Positions 9,567 through 56,792 of a stretch of DNA of 64,000 nucleotides are shown piece after piece (within the stretch, counting starts at the first letter, position 1; every line of letters begins with the position of its first letter). This DNA is from an uncultured Mycoplasma sp. (GTDB lineage Bacteria > Bacillota_I > Bacilli_A > Mycoplasmatales > Metamycoplasmataceae): NCBI GenBank assembly GCA_947039505.1, contig CAMQYZ010000001.1:62001-126000 (forward strand), written 5' to 3'. The notes under the pieces are model-generated. The model did no database searches, was not told the DNA's origin, and saw nothing but the letters and a program-made list of their open reading frames with translations. The translations under genes and the position numbers were made by a program.

Positions 9567-9642
9567 TGGTGGCCCCGGTAGGAATCGAACCAACGACACA
9601 CAGAGCTTCAATCTGTTGCTCTACCGACTGAGCTACAGGGCC
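9567..9642 (-). tRNA. tRNA-Phe (anticodon GAA)
   Basis: A 76-nt tRNA with anticodon loop TTGAAGC, complete cloverleaf, acceptor GGCCCTG/CGGGGCC (one G-U pair) and encoded CCA. Last of the eight-tRNA operon. Confidence 0.97.
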
Positions 9643-9648
9643 TAAATA

Positions 9649-9724
9649 TGGCGGTCCAGACGGGGATCGAACCCGCGATCTCCTCCGTGACAGGGAGGCG
9701 TATTAACCACTTTACCACTGGACC
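9649..9724 (-). tRNA. tRNA-Asp (anticodon GTC)
   Basis: A 76-nt tRNA with anticodon stem CCTCC/GGAGG around loop CTGTCAC, acceptor GGTCCAG/CTGGACC, discriminator G and encoded CCA. Confidence 0.97.
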
Positions 9725-9725
9725 A

Positions 9726-9801
9726 TGGTTGCGGAGACAGGACTCGAACCTGTGACCTTTGGATTATGAGCCCAACGAGCTACCAACTGCTCCACTCCGC
9801 G
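9726..9801 (-). tRNA. Initiator tRNA-fMet (anticodon CAT)
   Basis: A 76-nt tRNA. The first base C faces A at position 72, the unpaired end typical of bacterial initiators. The anticodon stem is TTGGG/TCCAA, so the three conserved G residues are present, but the third pair is G31-U39 instead of G-C. CCA is encoded. It lies between the Ser(TGA) and Asp tRNAs, as in other Mollicute and Bacillus clusters. Confidence 0.95.
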
Positions 9802-9879
9802 ATATTTAAAATAGAAATAAAATTTTCTATTATTTTGAAAGGCAAAAGCTATAAGTGGGTTAAACTAATAACTTTTAAA

Positions 9880-9972
9880 TGGCGGGCAATGAGGGATTCG
9901 AACCCCCGCGGGCGGTAAAGCCCCTGCTAGTTTTCAAGACTAGTCCCTTCAGCCAGACTTGGGTAATTGCCC
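9880..9972 (-). tRNA. tRNA-Ser (anticodon TGA)
   Basis: A 93-nt class II tRNA with long variable arm, anticodon loop CTTGAAA, acceptor GGGCAAT/ATTGCCC and encoded CCA. A gap of about 78 bases separates it from the initiator tRNA downstream. Confidence 0.97.
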
Positions 9973-9977
9973 TTAAT

Positions 9978-10054
9978 TGGTGGACCCAGCTGGGCTCGAA
10001 CCAGCGACCTACCGGTTATGAGCCGGGTGCTCTAACCAACTGAGCTATAGGTCC
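9978..10054 (-). tRNA. tRNA-Ile2 (CAT anticodon, lysidine type) by similarity
   Basis: A 77-nt tRNA with anticodon loop CTCATAA between CCGG and CCGG. The gene encodes CAT, but the body (GGACCTATAGCTCAGTTGG, then a TAGGTCG variable/T-arm junction) resembles the bacterial Ile tRNA whose C34 is converted to lysidine by TilS to read AUA. Initiator and elongator Met tRNAs are both present separately in this cluster, which supports the call. Confidence 0.85.
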
Positions 10055-10086
10055 ATTCTTCTACAACGAATATGGAATTCCAAATT

Positions 10087-10163
10087 TGGTGGCGCCAAAG
10101 GGAGTCGAACCCTTGACCTTCCGGGTATGAACCGGATGCTCTAACCAGCTGAGCTACAGCGCC
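10087..10163 (-). tRNA. Elongator tRNA-Met (anticodon CAT)
   Basis: A 77-nt tRNA with anticodon stem TCCGG/CCGGA and loop TTCATAC. The acceptor GGCGCTG/TGGCGCC ends in a perfect first pair, unlike the initiator. The loop and stem match the Bacillus elongator Met pattern. CCA is encoded. Confidence 0.93.
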
Positions 10164-10167
10164 ATAA

Positions 10168-10244
10168 TGGTGGAGAGGAAGGGAGTCGAACCCTCTACCT
10201 CCTGCGTGCAAGGCAGGCGCTCTAGCCAGGTGAGCTACCCCCCC
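10168..10244 (-). tRNA. tRNA-Ala (anticodon TGC)
   Basis: A 77-nt tRNA with anticodon loop CTTGCAC. The 5' acceptor strand is seven G, paired with CCTCTCC, which preserves the G3-U70 pair that marks alanine identity and adds a second G-U pair at position 5-68. CCA is encoded. Confidence 0.97.
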
Positions 10245-10251
10245 ATAATAA

Positions 10252-10328
10252 TGGTGAAGAAGACAGGATTCGAACCTGCGACCACTACGTCCCAAACGTA
10301 GTGCTCTACCAAGCTGAGCTACTTCTCC
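10252..10328 (-). tRNA. tRNA-Pro (anticodon TGG)
   Basis: A 77-nt tRNA with anticodon stem CTACG/CGTAG and loop TTTGGGA, acceptor GGAGAAG/CTTCTTC with one G-U pair and encoded CCA. It is the first tRNA of the operon. No other tRNA is visible upstream, and 10329-10493 is AT-rich without features. Confidence 0.97.
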
Positions 10329-21879: not shown

Positions 21880-23001
21880 TTATTTTTGTTTAATTTTTTC
21901 TTGAGGATTTTCTAAAATTAATGTTCTAGTTCCTTCATCTCTAAATAATTTTTTAGATTCTTGTACTTGTGACAGTATATTTTTTATATGTGCTTCAATA
22001 TCTTCAGATTCTAAAATCATTTTTGACTCATCAACATTTAAAGCCAAAATAGTAATTTGACTATAAATATCAATATCAAATTCACCAATGTATTTACATA
22101 TAATAAATTCTTTATCTTCTCCGATAATAGAAGTTAAGATATATCTAATTCTATCAATCATCTTCTTGGTGATGTAAGGCGTTTTAATTGTTACTATAAA
22201 TGTTTTTGAAGCTTCAAATGAACCATGGAATATAGGATTTGATAAAGCTTGGACAATTGATAGATCCAATCAATCAATTTTAGAATTTGAAATTCCAATA
22301 GTAGGAATTATCTTATTGGCAAAATTTTTCTTATCTTTATAAAATAAAGATTTAATTAGTGAAAAGTGATTGGGATTTAAATCGGGTTCTACAAACGGAA
22401 CTACAAATGACTCAACTAAATCTAAAACAAACCTAGAAATAAAATGTTTTCTATTAACTAAATTTGCTTCTTCATAAGCTTCAATAATTGTTGATTCAGC
22501 AATTGGAATATAAGGTTGAGAAAATTTAATTGCTTCTTTCTTTAATCTATTATAAATTTTATCTTCTGAATTACTTGTAATAAAGTTTTCTACTACACAA
22601 TGAAAAGAAAATACATCATAACGATTTAATATATAGGCCAATTCAATAACATAAGAAAGCATAAAAGAATTTTGTGATTTATACAAAATAATTGCTAAAT
22701 CAGCATTTGCAACAATGCTCTTTATTTCTTCAATATTATTTTGAAAAAATGTTGGAGCAGGAATTATTTTTTCATTTTCTCTTGGAGAACTTCAAGATAA
22801 AAATGATTCTTCAAATTTATTTTTAACATTTGAGTTATTTGAAAAGGTTTTTTCTGTTCCTATTTTAAAGAACCTTGTGTTGGCTCTAATAGATTTATGA
22901 ATATTTTCAAAATTTCCTAATTCAATATCTGAAAAATATATAATTACGGTATTTGCAACATAATCTTTCTTGACATTCTTTATTTCTTTTTTATTAAACA
23001 T
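21880..23001 (-). CDS. Divergent FtsZ/tubulin-fold-like protein with a lost GTP-binding loop
   Basis: A 373-residue protein whose order of segments follows FtsZ although the sequence is far diverged. RFFKIGTEKT stands where FtsZ has the strand before its switch. EEIKSIVANADLAIILY corresponds to the strand before the GTP signature loop. A long helix follows, then the roughly 60-residue C-terminal domain (QALSNPIFHGSFEASKTFIV, then FDIDIYSQITILALN), which parallels AxxSPLLxxxIxGAxxxLxN and DEIRVTVIATG. The GGGTGTG loop is replaced by SQNSFML, and the T7 catalytic acids are not evident. It probably cannot hydrolyse GTP in the usual way. AAGGACGG precedes the start. Confidence 0.55.
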
Positions 23002-23100
23002 ATAATCCGTCCTTATTTAATGCTATCATAATTATGTTTAATGCAAATGATGATAAATTATCTTTTAATTATAAATTAAAATTCATTATTAGCATTAATT

Positions 23101-38632: not shown

Positions 38633-41600
38633 CTAGAATAATCCCGGAATTACTAATCCACCAATTAATCCTAAAGACGCAATACTTATTAATATTACAA
38701 TAATTAACATTGTTTTAACAACAGGTTTACTTGATAATTTTAAACGCTTTTGTGTTCCAGCTAAAGAAATTGATGAAACAACAATCATTCCGACAGCTAT
38801 TAATCCAACCAATATAGGTCACACTATTTGAACATTTATAAAAGGATTTATTTGAAATAAAGCTGATTCTTCTTCAATAATTCTATCCAAAATATCTATA
38901 CTTGTTTTTATTTCATCTGACAATATTTTTGTTTGAGATAAATTCATAGAAAAGTCAGTTGTATATACTTCTATATCATTACCAATTTTTTGAATACGAG
39001 ATCACACAAAGATATTTTTATAAGAAGTTATTCCAGCATCTAGTATATTCATAATTTTTATTAAGTCTTTTTCTGGAGACACAACTCCTATTGGAGTGTT
39101 TTCTTTTCTAAACATTAAAGAATTATAAATGTTTGAAGAAGTAATCAAAGAACTAAGTATGTTATATTCATAATTTTTTTCTAAAATATTAACTTTTTCT
39201 CTTGAACTAGGATTTAATTTTTGGAAAATTGTATCAATTGCTGTAGCAAAATCAACTTCTCCTCACTTTAATTCAATTGCATTTCCTGTTTCTAAAGAAT
39301 TTTCTGTAATATTATTAATTCCAAATCCAAATGTTGACAATAATCTATCATAAATATTAATTGAATTTATCTTAGTTTGTGACGCTAAAGAATTAAAGCT
39401 TGATAAAGTTTCTTGATTAGAAGCAAAACTAGTAAACAATTCCAAAACTGATTGTTCTCCACCATTAGTAGAAATAGCACTAAAGATTGAATTTCCAAAA
39501 TATGTTATTTTTGAATTATACTCCTTTTCACCAAAGTACAATAAATCAAATAATGATTTCATTTTTTGAGATCCAGTTAAAACATCTGCTGTTTCTAAAA
39601 CTTTTGGATTTGAACTTGTTCAATTAAATAATCCTGCTGTTTGATCAAATTTTAAAAATGAATTAACATCAGTAATTTTCATTTTATTATCCACATTTGA
39701 ATCTAAATATTTCTTAATTTCTTTATAATAAAATTCATTTATTGGATTAATTAATACATCTTTCATTTCTGCAAATTTAATTTTTATTAGTTCTGCAAGT
39801 TGTTTTTCAACCAACAAATCTTTATCTTTACTTGTACTATCAATAATTAGTTTGACATTATCTAAAATCAATTGTCTTTGAGCTTTATTTTCAATTGACA
39901 ACAATCTTTCTTTTACAATATCATTTGCAGTTCCGCCAACACCAATCTCATAAATATTTTTAAGATTTCATGGTTCAGAGGGCATTAATTGTTCCATTAT
40001 TTCTTGATATATAGAATACTCATCTACAATACTAGAATACATTTCTCTTCCTGTATAATCATTAGATTCGCTTCTTCAAGAAATATCTTTATAAATTTGA
40101 CCCTCTTGAGAATAAGTTATTTTATTATAAAGTTTTTGTCCTAACTTTGTAACTCCAACACCTTGATCTTCTTTTGATCATGATTCATAAATTTTAGCTA
40201 AATAAGCAATAACTTCACTTTCTGAATTAATTCATTTAGATGAAATGGCTGTTGATACAGCAGGCTTTACTGTGGTATCTGAAACAAAACCAGGATCTTC
40301 AAAGAATATTTTTTTAGTCAAAATAGTATTTAAAGATATAACAAACCCTGTTCTTGAAGGAATAGGAACACCAGATACAGAAAATCCCATTAAATCATTA
40401 AAGTAAAGACCTTGTTTGTAAATATTTTTAGTTGTTGAAGTTTCGGTTTTTAAAGAAACAGATAATTGAGATAAATCATCATCAGAAACTCCAATTTCAG
40501 CCATTACTTCATCAGAAAATTCAATTTTTGTAGAACCTATATTACTAATTGCACCTTCAAGTACACCCAAAATTAAAGATTGTTTTTTGGTAGCGGAAAC
40601 TTTATCACCTTCAAAACCAAAAAGATCTTTATATGCTTGGTCTTGTTTATTTTTGTAAAATAAATTTAAATTGAATTCTGTATCATTACCTAAATAATAT
40701 TCATATTTTTTGTTTATTTTTGTATTTGAAGTTCCACCAACATCTGTATAACTAGCATTTGAAACCAATAAGTCTGTTGAGAAAAATTTAATGTTTGTTA
40801 TTGTATCATCTGTTGGATAAGTTGGAACAGTAGAATCTATTGTAGAATTTACAATTCCAAAATTTGAAACACCAGAAACTTTTATATTACTAAATTGATC
40901 TCCATCTCTTAATTTAACTACAACAAAAAGTTTACCATTACTTTTAGATAATACAAAATTATCCATAACTTGTTTAAAGTTATTTGCAGGATCTTCCAAT
41001 GAATTCATTCCTAAATTAGTTCATCTACCGAAAATTTCTAAATCTGTTTGACTTTTTGATAATTTAATACTTGGATCTGTGATTTGTTGATTACTATTTC
41101 TAATAATTAAACTACCTCTTGCTGTCATACCAGTTAATGATGAATTAGAAAAATCAAAATCTAATTTAATATCTTCCGAAACTGATGCTAAATCAATTTC
41201 CGCAATTGTTATTTCCGTTTTATAATCACCTGTCAAAGCAACATCAGTCATTATACCTGTTACAAGATCAACAACTTTAGATGGCTTGTTACTCAAAGTT
41301 CTTATTCTATGAGAATCACTTGAACCTGAAACAAAACCTGACAACATTTTTATATTGGTATCTAATTCTTCTTGCGTACCTGAAACTGCTACAAATTCTT
41401 TTCAACCAAGAGTATCTTTAATTGTTTCTCAAATAGCAATATTACCTGATGAACGCAATGATTCTCTAACAACCAAAACATCAGATCATGCAATTAAATC
41501 ATTAATTTTTGAAACTATATATTTAAAAGATGCTATTTCTGAAAATTGAGAAAAGTTTGATTCCAAGTTTGTTTTAATGTCTATTCATTGTTTTTTTGCA

Positions 41601-41875
41601 ATTACTAATTGTGCTGTTGTACCTGCATCTCCTGTATCTGGATTTATAAATGTAAAATTTTTAAAATAAAATTCTGAATTTGTCAAAGCATCTTTAGAAA
41701 CCTCGTTCAAACTTCTTGAATTATAAGAATTGTTTGTCATTTGATTATTAGATAATTGATTAATTGATGATCCAACAAAACCTGCTGATGATAACAATAA
41801 AGTGGTTGCAGAAGCAGCTATAACTCCAAATGTTTTTAAAACTGAATATGCTTTTTTATTTTTTAATTTATTCAT
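38633..41875 (-). CDS. Large membrane-anchored surface protein of the F1-like ATPase neighbourhood
   Basis: A 1080-residue protein. One helix lies near the N-terminus (about 14-35, with no lipobox cysteine), then a roughly 960-residue Ser/Thr/Asn-rich part expected outside the cell. Two membrane helices end the protein (about 1020-1043 and 1056-1078), so both ends are membrane-bound. At least nine TGA codons split it under the standard code. A segment near residues 215-255 resembles the beta module seen in the neighbouring surface proteins. It starts two bases after the stop of the multi-spanning gene upstream, so the two are co-expressed and probably assemble together. Family not recognised. 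Confidence 0.8.
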
Positions 41876-41877
41876 AA

Positions 41878-43362
41878 TTACGCCCCAATCTTATCTTGTG
41901 TTCCAGCACTTTGTTTTTTCGCTTGTTCAGCTTCAATTTCTTGAGTATTTCTCATTCCCTCATTCTTATTAACTTTTTTATCTTCATAAACTATCTTTGA
42001 ATAACTCAATAGTTTAATTCCTAAATTCATTGAAGAAGCTATTAAAGCTGGTAGTAAAGTTAAAATTATCATTTCCACTCCTTCAAAAATATTTGTCGCT
42101 GATTCTTGAGGGAATGTTGATTGAAATAACACCATTCCTGATACTCCTAAGTAAGCAATAATATTTATGATGGTCGATGTTGTGTTTTTAATATTTGGAA
42201 AATTAACACCAATTAAAATTGTTGAAATATTAATTACAAATATCGCAATGAAACAAGTAGATAAAGACATATAAACAGATATATCAACACCTTTAGCCAA
42301 TCCAGCAATAATAACAGTTTTAATTAATATAAATCATGATATAAAATCCATCAATATTGAATTATCAATACTTGATATCAACATATTCGTTTTACCTTTT
42401 TTACCCATTTTCTTGAATCATATGATTATTGCTACATATACAAATAATATAATAGCGTCTATAGACATAGAAACAATAGATAAAATTTCAATTTTATTTC
42501 CTGATCATACCGATAAAATTGGCAAAGCTTTTGTAATACCTAGAATTATCAAAGATAAAGCAGGCATCAAAACCATCAAGAAAGAAATATTTCTAAAGAA
42601 ATCTATTTTTTGGATTTCTTGTTCTGTTTTATTAAATAATACTAATTCTTTGAAAGTTTTAACATATGAAAATGAAAATGAAGTATACAATAATCCTATT
42701 GAAAATATAACCAATTGAATTATCAAAAAAATAGTTGACATTTGAGGCATAATTGAAACTCCTCATGATACCATTGCTAAAATTGGAAAAATAAGCATTG
42801 TAAATAAAGATAACTTGGTTTTAATTCACGAAGAAGGGAAAGCGCCCTTTATTTTGAAAGCATTAAACATTAATGTTGAAGCCATAAAAATAAATCAAAA
42901 AATTAATCCAATTCCAAAAATTAATGAACGAATTTGTGACACTTGACTAATCTCATCTATTGATCCTTTTGCAGGATAAGCAAATGGAGGAATAGACATA
43001 ATTATGATTATTAACGATAATATTACTGCATTAATCAAATGGATAATGTAATAATTAATAATAAAAAGTTTTTTCAAAGAGCCTTTATATATTCAAGAAA
43101 TTAAACCTATTGAAAATAAAGCCAAAAATAAACCTATAAAAATATTGATAAAATCTATATATTGAAAATCCAACTCTGGAGCTTGTGCTCCTGAAAACAA
43201 AAAAGAAAGAGATAATAAAGAAATGAATAGTGAGTACATAAAATAAGAAGCTGCCTTCAAATAATTATCTCACCTTATTTTTTTAGTTAAAATATCTTTA
43301 TTTTGAGTGATGTAACCTTTGTTTTTTTCCAGGTCTAAAGATTGTGTTGCTTCGTATGCCAT
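41878..43362 (-). CDS. Multi-spanning membrane protein of the F1-like ATPase neighbourhood
   Basis: A 494-residue protein with about twelve hydrophobic helices and a hydrophilic acidic tail (about 460-494, NKNEGMRNTQEIEAEQ). The start at 43362 (MAYEATQSLDLEKNK) has AAGGAG. It has no motif of a known transporter family and no conserved charged residue suggesting an F0 a or c subunit. It is first in a two-gene unit with the 1080-residue surface protein. As the only polytopic protein near the F1-like genes it is the best candidate for a membrane sector (X0), but that is inference from position. Confidence 0.78.
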
Positions 43363-43483: not shown

Positions 43484-44887
43484 TTATGAGGGTTTGAAAC
43501 CTTTTGTAATGTCTTTTGTATAAGAATATTTAGCTTCAGGATTAATTTTACTTTTTATATAAATTTCAACAGAAATGGCCGGTTTTCCTGATAAAACTAT
43601 TTCAGAAGCCATAGTGACTTGGTATTCAAAATCTGGGTATAGTGTTTTTGTGAATACAAATGCCTCAAAATTATTAGATTCTATAATTTCTTTAATTGTT
43701 TTATTTTTGTAAATTGGAGAAATTGTGGGTTTTATCGCTCATTCATTATAAGGATTGTTAGCAATTATATTGTTCAATTCATTTTGTTGAACTGATAGCA
43801 ATCCATCTAATTTAGTTTCATATGTTTTTGTATTAACACTTTCACTTTGTCAAACAAGAACTTTTATTATTAATGACTCTTGTTTGATATCATTTTGTTG
43901 GGTTTCTGCTGATATTATTTTGTAATTAAATTTAGGTATAGATGGTAAATCTTTGAAAACTAAGTATTTTTGAGAATTATTGTCATTAATAGACTGTATT
44001 ACATCAGCTGCAGTGGGGTGAATAAAGGGATCATTTAATTCAACAGATAATTCATCAGCATTTTCTATAAAATTAGAAGAATCTAAATTATAAAAATCTT
44101 TTACCATAACAGTACCTGAAGAGGTTTCCGATAATCCATCATTAATTTCAAACAATATAATTGTTTTCCCTAAAACAATGTTTGATGCAATTTGACTATT
44201 TAATTGTTCATCAGTCAACATTGTACCTAATTCTTTAAATTTTGTTATAAAACTCTCGACTTGTTCAGTAGTAGAATTACCATCTATTGTTAGTAATGCA
44301 TTTAATTTTGCTCCATTATTATTGTATATAAAACCTAAAGATTCTGCTTTAGAAAAATAAGGTGAATTGATAGCAATTGATTCTGGAGTTACTGTAGTTC
44401 CAGGTTCAGGAAGTTTGGTTGCATCAACACTTGAAGAATAACTAGGCAAATCAACAATTGTTTCTTGAATAACTGTTTGCGCAGAAATTTCAGAAGTGGC
44501 AAATATATTGGTTAATTTTGTTGTATATTTAAGACTTTCGTTGTTTTTATTAGTTATTTCAACTTCAACTTCTAAGTCTTTATTTCCTAATGATTTTTTA
44601 GATATAACTTCATAAGTTAAACTAGAATCATAACCTTTTACTTTTTCAAAAATAAAATCTTTATCTGTAGCATATAATTCCATTCATTCAGAAGAATATT
44701 TAGTCATTTTTTCACCAACATTAGGTGCTATCTTCATTTCCATAGCTATATTTAGATGTTCAGATGGAGTTTTTGTATTCTCTTTGTAATAACTTATTAC
44801 TGCTCATCCACTAAACGATGCACCTACACAAGCTAATGTTGAACCAACACCAATAATTATTCATTTTGCTTTTTTTGATATATACAT
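43484..44887 (-). CDS. Bitopic surface protein with lipoprotein-associated beta modules
   Basis: A 467-residue protein. An N-terminal helix (8-32, TLACVGASFSGW) may be an anchor or an atypical lipoprotein signal with Cys20. Three repeats of a beta-strand module are visible: near 75-120 (LTYEVISKKSLGNKDLEVEV), near 340-385 (FNYKIIS) and at the C-terminus (FEYQVTMASEIVLSGKPAIS, ending DITKGF). They follow the pattern of the mycoplasma lipoprotein-associated type-17 repeat. It forms its own transcription unit with a TATAAT in the leader and AGAGGT before the ATG. Confidence 0.75.
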
Positions 44888-45002: not shown

Positions 45003-48000
45003 TTAAATATCAGTCATTAAATCAAGTCCTGAATTAATATCATTATATATAACGTTTGAACTACTTCCAGGTTTTATAGTTAGATTATTTCCAATAAATG
45101 AATTATCATTAATAACTAAGATATTGGATAAGTCAATTTCAAATTGGTTATTAGAAATTTTTAAATCCTTCAAAAAATTAGAAGGTATAAAATAAATATC
45201 TTCACCAAATTTTATTTTCTCAATTTTTAAACCATTTAAATTTTTAATATTTCTAATTATTAACTCTGAACTTGAAATCATCTCTTTAAAATAAAGCACT
45301 CCATTTTCTAAACTTCATGGTAATTTATTTGAAGCAATAGAGTGAGCAGGAGTTCTATCAACAAATTGTCATTTATTTATAGAAAAAGCACCTCCCGAAA
45401 CATACAAAATAGAACTGGGTATAATGATTTTTACCAAATTATCATTTCGAATAAAGGAATTTTGTGTTATTTCAGCTTTTACACCATTTTCAAAAATTAA
45501 ATGAGTAATATTATTCCCTTCGAATGAATTAGCATCCAATATTTCTAAATTTGAATTAAATCTTAATTCTCCTTCTAAATTATTAAATTTTTGTATATAA
45601 GAATTTTGAAACACAGCTTTTCCTATTATTTCAACATTTTCAAGACCCACAACTTCATTTATTTTAATATTTTGAAATAAATAATCATGCAACTTTCTTT
45701 CTCTATAATTTGTTTCTGGCTGTTTAATCGTTAATTTGTTAATAGATGCTATATTTGTTTGTGAAAACCCTGTAATAGACGATTCATTTTCAGGGATTAA
45801 ATCTAAATCTCAAATAACCTCTTCTACGTCAACTTTTTTTGTTAATAAAATATTTATTTGATTAATAGCTTTTGCATAAGAATAAGGTTCTGGTCTTGCA
45901 TGACTAAAATCAATAATTATGCCATTCGAACTACTTAATGAAATTAATTCTGGAATAAATGTTAATTTATCATCTATATTAATTTCAACTCCTTGATCAA
46001 AAGAAGTTTTTGTAATTTCAGGAACAATATTAAAATTAACTGATTTTAACTTTTCATTGTTTGAAAATGCATTTGACCCAATAGATTGTATATCAAACAA
46101 AGAAATTGCTGTTAATAAATTTTTATCAAATGTGTTATTCAAAATAACTGTTATTTTTGGAATAAATATTGAAATTAGTTTGTTATTTTGAAAACCTCCT
46201 ACACCAATGGAAATGACTTCAGGAAGATTTATAGAAGTTAGATTGTTGTATGAAAAAGAGTTTTGACCTATTTTGTTAACAAAGGACATATTTAAATTTC
46301 CCTTTAATGAAGATTTATAGAAAGCAAAGTTTCCAACTTCTTCAATACTATTTAAAATATTTATGTCAATTTTGGAAAGATTAATATCATAAAATGCATA
46401 GCTTGGAATTGTTTTGATATTTGTAGGTAATGTTAATTTTGTTATATCTGTTTTTAAATATTTAATATTAGTGTAAAAATTATCAACAAATATGTCTGCT
46501 GAATTTTCCAAATTTAAGTGACCATCAACTAATAATATATTCGTTAAATTTTCTGGCATAACTCTATCTACTTCTGCTTTTGAATTAGTTATTGAATTTA
46601 TCAAATCATTTGTCAATAAATTAGTTTTACCATATATAAAAATTTTAATAGGATTTGCATGATCAAATGTTTTAAAAATATTATGAAAGTTCAAAGATGT
46701 AGGAATAGCCTTATTTTCTAGATGTAAATTTTGGACAATATTATTCTTGGGATCTCCAGAATCAAAGTAATTATTTAATTTAAAATTTGCTTCTTCATAA
46801 CCAGGAATGTTTGGGATTGCAGAATCTAAATCAAGACTACCATTCTTTACCAAATTACTAATTTTTGAATTAAATTTCCTATCGATAACTCTCTTTTTCT
46901 TGATGGCAATCATATCGATTGACAAAATATTTTCTAATATAGTTATTTTTTTAATTTGTCATTTGTCTAACGATAATTCATTATCTATAGAAGTATCTAC
47001 ATTTCCAGCAAAAATTACTTCATCAATAGTTAGAGTTAATTTATTAATGTCTTTTATAAGTTGATTTGATTTCTTTGATTGATTAAATAACTCACCATTC
47101 AATTTTATTGCATTAACTATTATTGAATCTGGTTTATGAATTAATAATTTTAATACATCTAAAAGTTCTTGCAATGATTTTATGTTTTCATTTATAAAAT
47201 CCATTGTTTTAGTTTTTTCGTCATAATACAAACTAAGTCCAAGTGAAAGCAAGTTTTCAAACTTTACATTGGAATCAAAGGAATTATTGTGTATTTTTTT
47301 TATTTTATTTTCAGTATCAAAAATTAATATCTTATTGGATAAAAATAAACTGTCTCCCAATTCAATAACTTCTTTCGGTAATTTAATATGCGTAATAAAA
47401 TTTGATTGAAAGTAACCTGTGCCAATTTCTTGGTTTTTTAGCTCTCAATTTTTGAATTCAGAAAGATCAAGTTCTCCATAGACAGCTTTACCCAATCATT
47501 TTTCATTAAATTTAATAATGTTGTCGCTTGTTCTATTAATAAAAACTACTTCAGCATTAATTCCTAAATTGTCTTCTGAATTAATTTTTACACCTTCGTC
47601 AGTTACAACAAAAACATAAAGTGGTTTTTGTGCACTTTTAAAGTTATTTGTAATTGATATCGATAAATCTTGATGTCGTTTTTTGTCTTTAATTAAATAG
47701 AAATATCCAATAACTAATTTTTGATTATTAAAATCATACCTAGTTGTTTTAATATCATTATTGAATTCAAAACCAAATCCTGGTGGACATTTAATGTCCA
47801 ATATATTCATTCATTCTTTGGTTTCATTTTTTTTTGGTAAAAAATTTTTCAAGAATTCTTTCAAAGTATATTTATTTTTATGTTCTGTGTTTAAATTTAA
47901 AGATTGAAAATATGATGTTACTGATCTAGCATAACTATGTCAAGTTACAAATCCAGAAACTACAGAATTAGTTTCTATCACTTCATTTCCAATTACAATA

Positions 48001-48338
48001 GAAATATTAAACTCAAGTTTAGTGCCATCTATTATTTTGGAATAATTGAATTTTACATCAACATCTTTACCTTGAATTAAATTTTCAAAATCTGAAGATA
48101 ACTCAAAATTAACCAAAGAACTCGAGTCATTATCAATATATAATTGAGCAGGGTATTGTAATATTTTCGATTGTTGTTCTTCAATCGGAACAACAATTTC
48201 TGAATTTTCTTCTAAAAAATCATTTATCAAATCATTTAATAAATCATTGGAACTACTGCATGAAGATAGTAAAACAATTGGAGATATAATAGTTGATGAC
48301 AACATTATTGTTTTTAATATTTTTTTTTGTCTAAGCAT
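45003..48338 (-). CDS. Large leucine-rich-repeat (BspA-like) lipoprotein
   Basis: A 1111-residue lipoprotein. The signal peptide ends PIVLLSSCSSS (lipobox LSSC, Cys27). Two beta modules like those of the neighbouring proteins follow (about 90-130 and 195-240). A long region then carries BspA-type leucine-rich repeats (about 620-790), for example IPSYAFYDINLSKIDI, IGQNSFSYNNLTSINLP and IGSNAFSNNEKL, each with a xxIGxxAFxxNxLxxI pattern. A second short LRR group lies near 910-1000. Such repeats in bacteria usually mediate adhesion. The gene is read through about eight TGA codons. It is last in a unit with the 36- and 150-residue membrane proteins. Confidence 0.85.
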
Positions 48339-48362: not shown

Positions 48363-48815
48363 TTAATCAAATTGTTTATATTTATCAAAAGAATCCATAT
48401 ATTCTGAATAAAATTGACTAACTCTTGATATTTTAACACTTGGATCAATGATTGAATAAATTACATAATCAAAAACTAAAGTTCGACTTTGTGATGTAGG
48501 TATAACTTTAGTTATTTCAATTTTATAAGAATAATTTTTTAATTGATTTTCCTTAGAAAAGGTAATATTTTTTGTAACTACATTTTCTACTAAATGCTGA
48601 CCACTAAGATTTGGTTCTGGTTCAGAAATAATAAAATTATTCTTTTGAAATAAAGAGCTTTCCTCTGCTTCAAAAAAATCAATTAAATCTTTTTCTTGGG
48701 GTGTCATTTTAGATGTATTATAAGCATAAATTGATCCAATTACAATTGCAGGAGTTCCAATTACAATAATTGAACCTAATGTTATTAATGCTAATTTGGT
48801 ATTTTTGTTTTTCAT
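48363..48815 (-). CDS. Small bitopic surface protein with one beta module
   Basis: A 150-residue protein. A basic N-terminus and one helix (about 8-31) are followed by a roughly 118-residue outside domain. Its second half, starting YSYKIEITKVIPTSQ, has the alternating beta pattern shared with the 467- and 1111-residue neighbours. No lipobox. AGAGGT precedes the start. It sits between the 36-residue peptide and the LRR lipoprotein in one unit. Function unknown. Confidence 0.75.
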   Translation of the reverse strand: MKNKNTKLALITLGSIIVIGTPAIVIGSIYAYNTSKMTPQEKDLIDFFEAEESSLFQKNNFIISEPEPNLSGQHLVENVVTKNITFSKENQLKNYSYKIEITKVIPTSQSRTLVFDYVIYSIIDPSVKISRVSQFYSEYMDSFDKYKQFD

Positions 48816-49149: not shown

Positions 49150-52786
<3,637 letters not shown>

Positions 52787-52802: not shown

Positions 52803-53396
52803 TTATTTCCTTATCTCTCATGCCACTATTGACTTTAATAATACTTTTTTCGAAACTTTAATTACACTATCTTGATGTTCTAAAAGTTTAAAGACATTAT
52901 TATTTTTAGAATAATTCTCTGCCGAGAAATAATTCGATAATCGACTATATTCTTTCAATGCAGGTTGATTTTTAGAAATTTCTAACATATCTTCCAATTC
53001 TTCCAAATTAATGGTTTTCAAATTTGAAAAGTTTTTGTAAATTTGAATTAGCATCTTATCCGGAATTATATCAAACTTACCATTTAACATAACCAAATCT
53101 CCTAGTTGATTTGATACTCTCATTACATCTTCAGCCATAACAAAAGATGTTTTTTCTTCATTTGTTGAAGATTCTCTATCTTTATATTTTATAACCAAGG
53201 CAGCTACATCATAAATTGTTATAACATCAGAAGTATTACCTTTTACCTTAAATGGCATACCTAGTAATAATTCAACAGGTTTGTAATCTACAGTTAATAT
53301 TGTGATGTCAGTCACTATTTGACTTTCATCTAAATATATTAATTTAAGTAAATCAGGATTGATGGCTGTAGTTAGCGTTAATTCTCTTTTTTCCAT
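52803..53396 (-). CDS. Unknown subunit of the F1-like ATPase operon (197 residues)
   Basis: A 197-residue soluble protein between the gamma-like and alpha-like genes. The N-terminal half is beta-rich (RELTLTTAINPDLLKLIYLD and PVELLLGMPFKVKGNTSDVI). The second half is helical with a Lys-rich end reached through a TGA Trp. The position is where ATP synthase operons do not carry a gene, and no epsilon or delta signature is visible. The start overlaps the preceding stop (TAATG), so it is made in step with the gamma-like subunit. Probably a structural subunit specific to this ATPase type. Confidence 0.78.
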
Positions 53397-54418
53397 TATT
53401 CCACCACCCCTTTTACTTTAACTAAGGGAAACTCTTCTTCTTGCTCTCTTACTTTAAATGCTGCATACAGCAATAGAGATTGCATTGTAGATTCTTCTTT
53501 TCTAGTTCTATTATAAAGCATTTTTAAATCAAATTGTTGTTCAGATAATTTATTTTTTTTCTCTTCAAGTAATTGAAGTTCTAAATTAAACTGTTCAATA
53601 TTGCTAAGAATTTTAGTTTCATAAATGTTTTGCCTAATAATTGTTTTAGTTAATTGTTCGTACAATACATAAATGTTGGGATTTCATTCAGCTTTATCAA
53701 TGTTAATGCTAGACATAATCTTCTTATGATGCAATATATATTCTTGCACAGATTTTAATTGATCTTCATTAACTGGTTCATCATTACTAGTTCTTAATTT
53801 TTGTTTTTTCTCATTAGAATTTGACAAAATATTTTCAAAAGGTAAAATTTGTTTAGAGACAACTGGTTCACTATTTAAGTTAGATGCTTGAGTAATTAAC
53901 ATCAACGCTCTACTGAACAAATTATTCTTTAATCCTATTTCAACTAATTCACTAACTTTTTGAGAAAGTCCTTCTAAATCTTCAAATAATGAATATTCAA
54001 AATGCTCAATAACATTTAATTCCAACTTTTGACAAATCTTATTAACATTATTTCCAAAAGTAATAATATAATCATTTGGAGTAACTACTTTAACAAGGGT
54101 TTCCTCTAATTTGTCCAACATATTTTTTGAATATATGTCTAATTTCTTTGGATCAACCAAGAAATACATAGTAGAATCAATTTTAGTTTTTTCAATTTTT
54201 TCATTATCTCTATCAAAAAACATCATTCCTCTTTTAAGAAATCAACGTTCTTCCACTGCATTCAATAAATTTAAATTAACTGTTTTTAAATTTTGAATAT
54301 TTTCTAACTTACTTACTTCTTGATTTAATAATTGCAAAACACGTATTTTAGATATTTCAACAAAATTTAAAAAGAAAGTTAATTTTTCTGATTTATCTTT
54401 GACTTCTTTTAATTTCAT
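53396..54418 (-). CDS. F1-like ATPase gamma-type stalk subunit
   Basis: A 340-residue protein with the architecture of F1 gamma. The N-terminal helix (about 1-60, VEISKIRVLQLLNQEVSKLE) is followed by a central alpha/beta domain (65-160), an inserted low-complexity segment (about 190-235) and a long C-terminal coiled-coil helix (252-325). The C-terminal helix includes DLKMLYNRTRKEESTMQSLL, which parallels the conserved LxYNRxRQAxITxE end of gamma. Under the standard code it appears as two unrelated small proteins, joined here by a TGA Trp at 53684-53686. GAAGGGG precedes the start. The C-terminal helix would rotate inside the alpha/beta ring. Confidence 0.82.
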
Positions 54419-54443: not shown

Positions 54444-55265
54444 TTATTTTTCTTTTTTAGATTTGTTACCCAAAGAAATTACAAGTTTGTTAAAATTATT
54501 TGCTGCTTTTTCATCAATAAATAACGAAGTAATTCCACTAACTCCTCTAACTAATAAAGTTCCTGCAAAAAATTCAACTTCATGTCCATTATTAAGAGCA
54601 TTATCTAATAATTTTATAAATGAATCAACAATTAAAAAATTGTTTCCTTCATTTTCTACCAAAGAAGTTCACTCAACTATTCCAATTGGCGGCAATAACT
54701 TTGGATTTGCAATAGCAACTGGGATTATTTTAGATTTATCAAAACGAATAACATCAATAATTAGAATTGGATTTAATACAACTGGATATCCTAAAATAAT
54801 TTTTTGCATTATTGAGTCTAAAAATTTATTTAATGTTTTTTCAACTTCATCTATAGTAATAATTACACCATCATAAATATAAATATGTGTTTGTAAAACA
54901 ATGTCTTTAATAGAAAACTTTGTATTTCTTTGAAAAACTTCATTATAGTTTCATACTGATTTGTTTAATACTAAATTATAGCTTTCATATGAATCAATTG
55001 AAGACAATGGTTTAGCATTTAAATCATTGAAATGTTCTTCCAATGCATTTATTTTTTCAATTCTCATTTTTGAATCTTCTTCAATAAGTTCTTTTTCTGT
55101 TCTAACTACTGAAAAAGCTATTTCTTTTGTTTGTGAAATAATATCTTCATAAGATAATGTTCCTGCAAACTTTTTTCCCTCTTGCACAGATTTTGGTTCA
55201 AAAGAAACATTGTTCTCCAAATTATTTTGTTTATTTTCTTCTAAGTTTCTATTTTTTTCTTGCAT
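54444..55265 (-). CDS. Unknown first gene of the F1-like ATPase operon (273 residues)
   Basis: A 273-residue soluble protein. An acidic, disordered N-terminus (1-45) precedes a helix (about 50-85, IISQTKEIAFSVVRTEKELI). A mixed alpha/beta C-terminal domain contains PVVLNPILIIDVIRFDKSK and ANPKLLPPIG. No TM segment and no known motif. It leads the operon, 26 bases before the gamma-like gene. GAGGG precedes the ATG and a TATAAT lies at 55328-55333. It may be a connector or regulator of the motor. Confidence 0.78.
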
Positions 55266-55469: not shown

Positions 55470-56792
55470 TTACAGTAATTGCTTTATGTTTATTGTTTTA
55501 CTAACGGTTTTTGACATTTCAAAATTTGAATTACCAACTTTGATCAACATAGAAAAAGTTAGGAGTGCATCAGAACTAGAAGTTACAGAAGAAATGTCAA
55601 TAGAAATTGACTTTATTGGTTCAATACTATATTGTCTTTGGAAAAAAGGTGGAACAAATATTCCTCCGGGTGTTTCTGTATTTATTTTTAAAATTTCTTC
55701 AGCATTTTTACCGATAATTAATCCCGGATTTTTTACAACAGGCATAAAAGCAAGCGAGCTGGATTCAATTCTTTGCCCAACTTCAGAAGCTATTGAAGAG
55801 TTTTTGTTTTTATGTGTTGTTATATTGCTTTCTGTAGGATTTTTAAAAATAATGTTTGGTTCAAAAAAATAATAAATTTTACTAAATGAAAGATTGTATT
55901 TTTCTTTAGCATAAGAAATTGCAGCACTATTAAAATAATTGTCATTAACTGGAGTAACTTTAATTTTATAAATACCTTTTCTTGGATTGGTTTCATCAAA
56001 ATCTGCAGATTCAATATTAAAGTTATATCGAGTATTATTTACCAAGGCACGATTAGGTGGCTCAATTAATCTTTCTATTGAATGAGCATCAATAGCAGAG
56101 AAATTAGCAGCATTTTCTTTAATGATAACTGGTCTATTGTTAATTATTGAATCCTTTGAATAAAAATCTATATTAAAATTCTTGCTTTTCTCAAAAATAT
56201 CTTGCCTTATAGCTTGAAATTCATATTTTTTATTTTTGTTATTTTCATCAATTCCATTATACACATACATAGATGCTTCTAATTCTTTTGGTTCTTCTGC
56301 AGAATCATTTTCTACAATAATAGTTTTCTCTATATTAATAGTAAAAATTTTAGATTTGGTAATAAATTTATTCGAGTTTCTTAATCCAACATTAACGTTA
56401 ACTTCAAAATAAATATTTCCATCAAGATCAAAAGAAACAATATCTTTTTTCGTAAAATCTCATGAATAAAAAATACCATATTCATCATTAGTTTCTGCAA
56501 CTTTAGGCTCAGGTAAAATAAAAATATTAGATAATTGTTCATTATTATTAATGTCGATTCCTGAATTAGTAATTTGTTCGTTATTCGCACCTAAATCTAA
56601 TAAATTTATTTTTTTCAAATTTAAGTCGTTACTAATCTTTAATTTGGTTGTATTTTTTAACTCTAAATCTAATAATTGATTTTCAATGGTATTATTTGAA
56701 TTATTTGAGCAAGATAAAAAAAATGTAATAGGAGTTATGGAAATAATTGACATTCCTAGAAATAATATTTTTTTCGCAAATTGTTTAGTCAC
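55470..56792 (-). CDS. Surface lipoprotein with beta modules
   Basis: A 440-residue lipoprotein. The signal peptide ends PITFFLSCSNN (lipobox FLSC, Cys28). The mature part is Asn/Ile-rich with repeated beta patterns, near 260-295 (YNFNIESADFDE, GIYKIKVTPV) and at the C-terminus (SIDISSVTSSSDALLTFSML). These recall the modules in the proteins at 43-48 kb. The start is GTG with AAGGAG. It lies just upstream of the F1-like operon with its own stop 205 bases away, so it may be part of the same surface system. Function unknown. Confidence 0.8.

Follow-up and report, generated by a model that had tools for sequence, protein, structure and literature searches.

The product of the gene at 21880-23001 on the minus strand of the window, the whole stretch of 64,000 nucleotides analysed here, has been shown to be an orthologue of the gliding protein P42 (Gli42) of Mycoplasma mobile. 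Profile comparison and structure prediction show that P42 derives from FtsZ and keeps the complete FtsZ fold, and alignment across the family shows that its GTP site and T7 catalytic acids are replaced; its sequence also lacks the tail peptide of FtsZ. The constant evolutionary companion of P42 is the internal motor, now named G1-ATPase in M. mobile (PMC11864180), and not the Gli349/Gli521/Gli123 legs, which were undetected in this genus. The P42 family is already known, and the present orthologue does not add a new kind of protein. Three findings are new: the loss of the GTP site described residue by residue across the family, a set of genes for the motor with P42 and without legs that 11 genomes of a single genus share, and a P42 gene detached from the gli operon. 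P42 clearly exemplifies how a protein descended from FtsZ can lose its nucleotide site and keep its fold beside a normal FtsZ.

Identity of the gene and descent from FtsZ

Translated with code 4, in which TGA is read as Trp, the open reading frame reaches 373 aa, against a maximum of 121 aa by chance in 500 base-shuffled copies of the region. The dN/dS ratio towards three close relatives is 0.076-0.078, comparable to that of FtsZ (0.056-0.072); the gene is under purifying selection, and the ratio of about 0.08 together with the shuffle control rules out a pseudogene or a chance reading frame. The NCBIfam model NF045859 (M. mobile gliding protein P42) is matched at 411.4 bits with a cut-off of 280, residues 9-372 covering model positions 1-364 of 365. 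A Pfam search with the protein returned no family at E<=10, the Tubulin family included, and a scan for promoters and terminators gave nothing beyond shuffled controls. Coordinates of the gene and of the other features are collected in Table 1.

Table 1. Features of the window, with the evidence for each
Feature	Position	Strand	Evidence or remark
Eight clustered tRNA genes	9570-10328	-	
topA (type I DNA topoisomerase), convergent to P42	19984..21813	+	Pfam PF01131
P42/Gli42 orthologue	21880..23001	-	NF045859 (NCBIfam); 373 aa; FtsZ fold, GTP site lost
AAGGA, ribosome-binding-like site, 8 nt 5' of P42 ATG	23010..23014	-	read from sequence
trxB-like pyridine nucleotide-disulphide oxidoreductase, immediately upstream of P42	23101..24027	-	Pfam PF07992
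MMOB1650-like, 1080 aa, C-terminal TM pair	38633..41875	-	BLASTP 22-23% to G121/G119/G122
MMOB1610-like membrane protein, multi-pass (8 or more hydrophobic segments)	41878..43362	-	BLASTP 25% to G121/G119/G122 motor-cluster genes
Protein of 467 aa, hydrophobic N-terminus, no family above cut-off	43484..44887	-	matches in G129 and G128 only
Lipoprotein, 1111 aa, LRR_5 repeats	45003..48338	-	lipobox; Pfam PF13306 E=2.3e-33
Membrane-anchored protein, 150 aa, no family, in motor cluster	48363..48815	-	family and orthologue searches
G1-ATPase beta (MMOB1670 orthologue)	49150..51189	-	NF045858 1051 bits, cut-off 850; PDB 9io5_A 2.9e-224
G1-ATPase alpha (MMOB1660 orthologue)	51179..52786	-	NF045863 824 bits, cut-off 600; PDB 9io5_D 1.2e-201
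MMOB1640 orthologue, internal gliding complex protein	52803..53396	-	NF045864 241 bits, cut-off 100
G1-ATPase gamma (MMOB1630 orthologue)	53396..54418	-	NF045862 364 bits, cut-off 250; PDB 9io5_G 3.9e-62
GliD (MMOB1620 orthologue), bridge subunit of G1-ATPase twin motor	54444..55265	-	PDB 9io5_R E=1.3e-83
Lipoprotein-like, 440 aa, upstream of gliD	55470..56792	-	conserved across leg-less genus

Comparison of 14 P42s with 23 mycoplasmal FtsZs by hhalign gave a probability of 98.2% (E 3e-14) over 337 columns. The AlphaFold model of the window P42 (pLDDT 84.4, pTM 0.85) was used for a Foldseek search of the PDB, in which the top matches were all FtsZ (E 2.8e-15, TM up to 0.79). Likewise, the P42 encoded in the gli operon of G121, modelled at pLDDT 83.8, had FtsZ as its top matches (E 6.8e-18). 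These two lines of comparison rule out that P42 lacks a tubulin fold, and the predicted fold and order of secondary structures are those of FtsZ (PF00091). The FtsZ-like order of segments recorded in the preliminary description is thereby confirmed, as is the match to the tubulin/FtsZ fold for which it had proposed to look; the trxB neighbour that it recorded is also present. It had cited M. mobile P42 as an analogy; the protein is in fact a P42 orthologue itself.

Sequence searches of the PDB with a single P42 or with the profile of 14 sequences found no FtsZ. The link between P42 and FtsZ is apparent only via mycoplasmal FtsZs, by profile-profile comparison or through the fold. The P42 model reaches FtsZ in many mycoplasmas (best E 3.6e-14), and in 13 FtsZ-bearing control genomes it detected no FtsZ at E<=0.001. 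Weak matches of the P42 profile in genera other than the two that bear P42 proved to be full-length FtsZ genes at all 15 loci examined, nearly all with GGGTGTG and NxDFAD. An origin of P42 by duplication inside the mycoplasma lineage would fit this pattern of matches.

Replacement of the GTP site beside a canonical FtsZ

Mapping of residues through the alignment of the 14 P42s to FtsZ revealed that all 14 have other residues at nearly every position that contacts GTP and in place of both T7 acids, and the cluster of GTP-contact glycines is gone from every one of them. In T1, GVGGCGTN of FtsZ corresponds to YFSDIELG of P42, where S24 is Gly in four P42 sequences; in T2, NTD corresponds to GTE, with G48 invariant among P42s. 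The GTP box of T4, AGMGGGTGTGA, is replaced by YKSQNSFMLSY with an invariant Y117 (AGMGGGTGTG aligning with YKSQNSFMLS). The Glu of T5 has no counterpart and its Arg is mostly Glu, Leu or Gln. The Asn of the guanine pocket (N166 in the organism's own FtsZ, N165 in E. coli) has become an invariant E169, and R184 is invariant in the T6 region. In T7, INLDFADV corresponds to NPNHFSLI, so that NLDFAD aligns with PNHFSL; the two acids are H/L/A and L/R/K/I/S across the family, and N209 is invariant. The C-terminus of the window P42 reads ENPQEKIKQK, in contrast to the tail peptide DDDEIPFFLK of the own FtsZ. Since the loss of the GTP signature is common to all 14 P42s, including the one in a gli operon, it is a trait of the family and not particular to the window gene. 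With the GTP site, the T7 acids and the tail peptide gone, P42 would be unable to act as a GTP-switched FtsZ.

Alternatively, P42 may be an NTPase with a rebuilt pocket, its specificity changed and not lost, whose nucleotide turnover regulates gliding. NTPase activity was reportedly found for M. mobile P42 in an earlier biochemical paper, which speaks against a fully dead pocket, and the invariant residues E169, R184, G48, Y117 and N209 all lie near the old one. Nevertheless, these residues could equally serve folding or contacts with partners, neither T1 nor T4 holds a Gly-rich phosphate loop, T5 has lost its Glu and Arg and T7 its two acids, and we regard a rebuilt pocket as unlikely.

The same genome (G000) encodes a canonical FtsZ of 377 aa on contig C4, with GGGTGTG and NLDFAD, which is also under purifying selection. 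P42 is only 13% identical to it and, in contrast to it, has no Pfam match, GTP box, T7 acids or C-terminal tail peptide, and its gene sits outside the division locus. The canonical gene rules out P42 as the organism's only FtsZ, and the FtsZ that serves division here is not P42. The preliminary description was correct about the lost GTP box and the missing pair of T7 acids, and its question whether the genome holds another ftsZ is answered by the gene on contig C4; its suggestion of a sole, non-canonical FtsZ fails. As to its other suggestion, a pseudo-GTPase scaffold, the FtsZ-fold pseudo-GTPase is upheld by profile, structure and residue mapping, and the scaffold part is what we infer.

In the sister subclade, the FtsZs (L069, L070, L071 and L072, from G124, G125, G133 and G132, respectively) are degenerate at T7, where NLDFAD has become NVSKSD, NISTND, NLTITQ or KVSWSE. 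Two of the four also have a changed GTP box (GFGGLTGT, GFGGKTGT), and all retain the tail DDDIPFFLK.

The G1-ATPase motor and the undetected legs

The window contains a G1-ATPase motor cluster 26 kb from P42. It has alpha, beta, gamma, GliD and MMOB1640 in common with the M. mobile G1-ATPase (Type 2 F1-like ATPase, PDB 9io5), and counterparts of MMOB1610 and MMOB1650 are probable, given BLASTP identities of 22-26% to genes of G121, G119 and G122 and similar TM counts (M. mobile MMOB1610 has 12 TM and MMOB1650 has 2; PMC11864180). In leg-bearing genomes the counterpart of the MMOB1610-like gene adjoins gliD and that of the MMOB1650-like gene sits between MMOB1640 and alpha. Here, unlike in the M. 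mobile cluster, both are shifted downstream of beta, extra lipoproteins are interleaved and no surface legs were detected; fast-evolving lipoproteins and membrane-anchored proteins lie among the motor genes.

Of the 320 genomes searched in the order, 14 gave scores above the cut-off of the P42 model, all of them in the organism's own genus (g1, 12 genomes) and one other (g13, 4 genomes), and a further copy cut by a contig end brings the total to 15. MMOB1630 was above cut-off in 16 genomes, namely 12/12 of g1 and 4/4 of g13. P42 occurs in 15 of the 16 genomes with MMOB1630, the sole exception being an assembly that is 84% complete, and in none of the rest of the 320. The Gli349 model exceeded its cut-off in g13 only (4 of the 16 motor-bearing genomes); in all 12 g1 genomes it yielded nothing above cut-off, only fragments of repeat domains. 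These short pieces at model positions ~2660-2770, which belong to the LRR_5 region of Gli349, were rejected as legs. Queries with Gli123-like and Gli521-like proteins matched the four g13 genomes and, one marginal fragment (3e-4) aside, no others, although very divergent versions could escape single G121 sequences used as queries, the Gli521-like one being a 1666-aa piece. With 8 contigs and 97% completeness for the own genome, and legs undetected in 12/12 g1 genomes, loss in assembly is unlikely. Eleven g1 genomes thus carry the motor and P42 without detected legs, and the twelfth carries the motor with P42 undetected. In a published analysis, Gli349 was missing from salmon-gut MAGs of the M. 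mobile clade (PMC10886447), and for the Arctic char MAG AC_MYC01 (relative L005) F-type ATPase genes were noted, possibly for gliding (PMC11092275).

The informative contrast is that the presence of legs varies and P42 stays: found in 15/16 motor genomes, of which only 4/16 have legs, P42 persists with the motor and not with the legs. The confinement of both P42 and motor to two related genera means that their co-occurrence may reflect shared ancestry instead of shared function. It could also be argued from the undetected legs that gliding has been lost and that P42 survives only by chance as a relic; this is already disfavoured as highly improbable, for the reading frame is intact in 13 relatives with dN/dS ~0.08, and intact motor genes accompany it that show high conservation, with 96-99% identity of alpha between close relatives.

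Trees of P42, G1-alpha and G1-gamma from 10 genomes share one topology. When M. mobile is added, it joins g13, the genus with legs, at support values of 76 and 89, and with F1-alpha as outgroup the leg-less g1 is the sister of g13 plus M. mobile. The placement implies that the common ancestor of g1, g13 and M. mobile had the motor and P42. The legs may have arisen later in the one lineage, or the other lineage may have lost or exchanged them.

The match of the window protein to the family of M. mobile P42 (MMOB1050) is full-length, and the homologue in the gli operon of G121 has the same fold and has likewise lost the GTP signature. In M. mobile, P42 ends the gli123-gli349-gli521 operon, whereas the window gene, in a genome where Gli349, Gli521 and Gli123 were undetected, stands beside trxB among lgt, trxB and topA, which do not form a gliding operon. 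The gli123-gli349-gli521-gli42 setting is a trait of M. mobile and M. pulmonis and not of NF045859. P42 adjoins trxB in the own subclade and in G132/G133, and lies near polC in G124. Large reading frames near P42 in G124 and G133 were rejected as gliding proteins, being polC, rpoB and rpoC, and so were those of G132, which has the layout of G133.

In g13, P42 follows a large lipoprotein, and the genes of G121 are arranged much as in M. pulmonis: gli349, gli521-like, 1128-aa lipoprotein, P42. In G119, G120 and G122 (L044, L046, L041), P42 comes right after a Gli123-like lipoprotein of ~1190-1230 aa, which has Lipoprotein_17 repeats in G122, and gli349 is found on another contig than these two genes. 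In a 2020 paper, gli42 was described as absent from M. agassizii and M. testudineum; if G119, G120 and G122 include these species, that statement needs revision.

Intermediate matches to the G1-gamma model (cut-off 250) occur in two other genera, at G001:C37:3114-4037 and G123:C1:200553-201425, with 88 and 56 bits, and the same genomes score 622 and 642 bits on the G1-beta model (cut-off 850). They may represent P42-less outliers related to the Type 2 motor.

Function of P42

The present genomes split the motor and P42 from the legs. P42 is absent from the published list of proteins of the internal structure of M. mobile (PMC7052211), the cryo-EM paper on the twin motor does not mention it (PMC11864180), and a 2020 paper describes its localisation as not clarified. 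The best explanation, to which we assign about an even chance, is that P42 is an FtsZ-derived, non-GTPase, cytoplasmic partner of the G1-ATPase motor system with a structural or regulatory role. In such a role, P42 would use the surfaces inherited from FtsZ for protein-protein contacts and might, for example, place or cap the motor array beneath the membrane.

Another explanation is that P42 serves division or cell shape as a second FtsZ relative; gliding would then not be its job, and it would have entered the gli operon seen in M. mobile and M. pulmonis only secondarily. P42 is kept where legs are undetected and adjoins trxB outside a gliding operon. M. mobile is listed as being without FtsZ (PMC4164004), and together with the T7-degenerate FtsZs of G124, G125, G132 and G133 this suggests that functions could have shifted between FtsZ and P42. 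However, a canonical FtsZ is retained here under purifying selection, P42 lacks the FtsZ tail peptide, and it is restricted to genomes that also bear the G1 motor, so that a role in division or shape seems rather unlikely.

A broader scenario can be proposed tentatively: the G1-ATPase and P42 would be the older core, with the Gli349/Gli521/Gli123 legs as an exchangeable front end. The fish-associated genus would then pair the same motor with other surface proteins, such as the 1111-aa LRR lipoprotein encoded shortly after G1-beta, for gliding or other mechanical work at the surface, P42 being the constant non-GTPase cytoplasmic part. Orthologues of this lipoprotein, at 74-21% identity, are confined to the leg-less genus among the genomes compared, and it may be regarded as a candidate surface effector. 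Should the motor here drive something other than Gli349 legs, this would bear on how a rotary ATPase was harnessed for movement.

An LRR_5 stretch also occurs near the C-terminus of Gli349. The N-terminal ~100 positions of the MMOB1670 model, the region that binds phosphoglycerate kinase in M. mobile, are left unmatched by G1-beta in the own subclade (G000, G128, G129 and G131) and are matched in G127 of the same genus.
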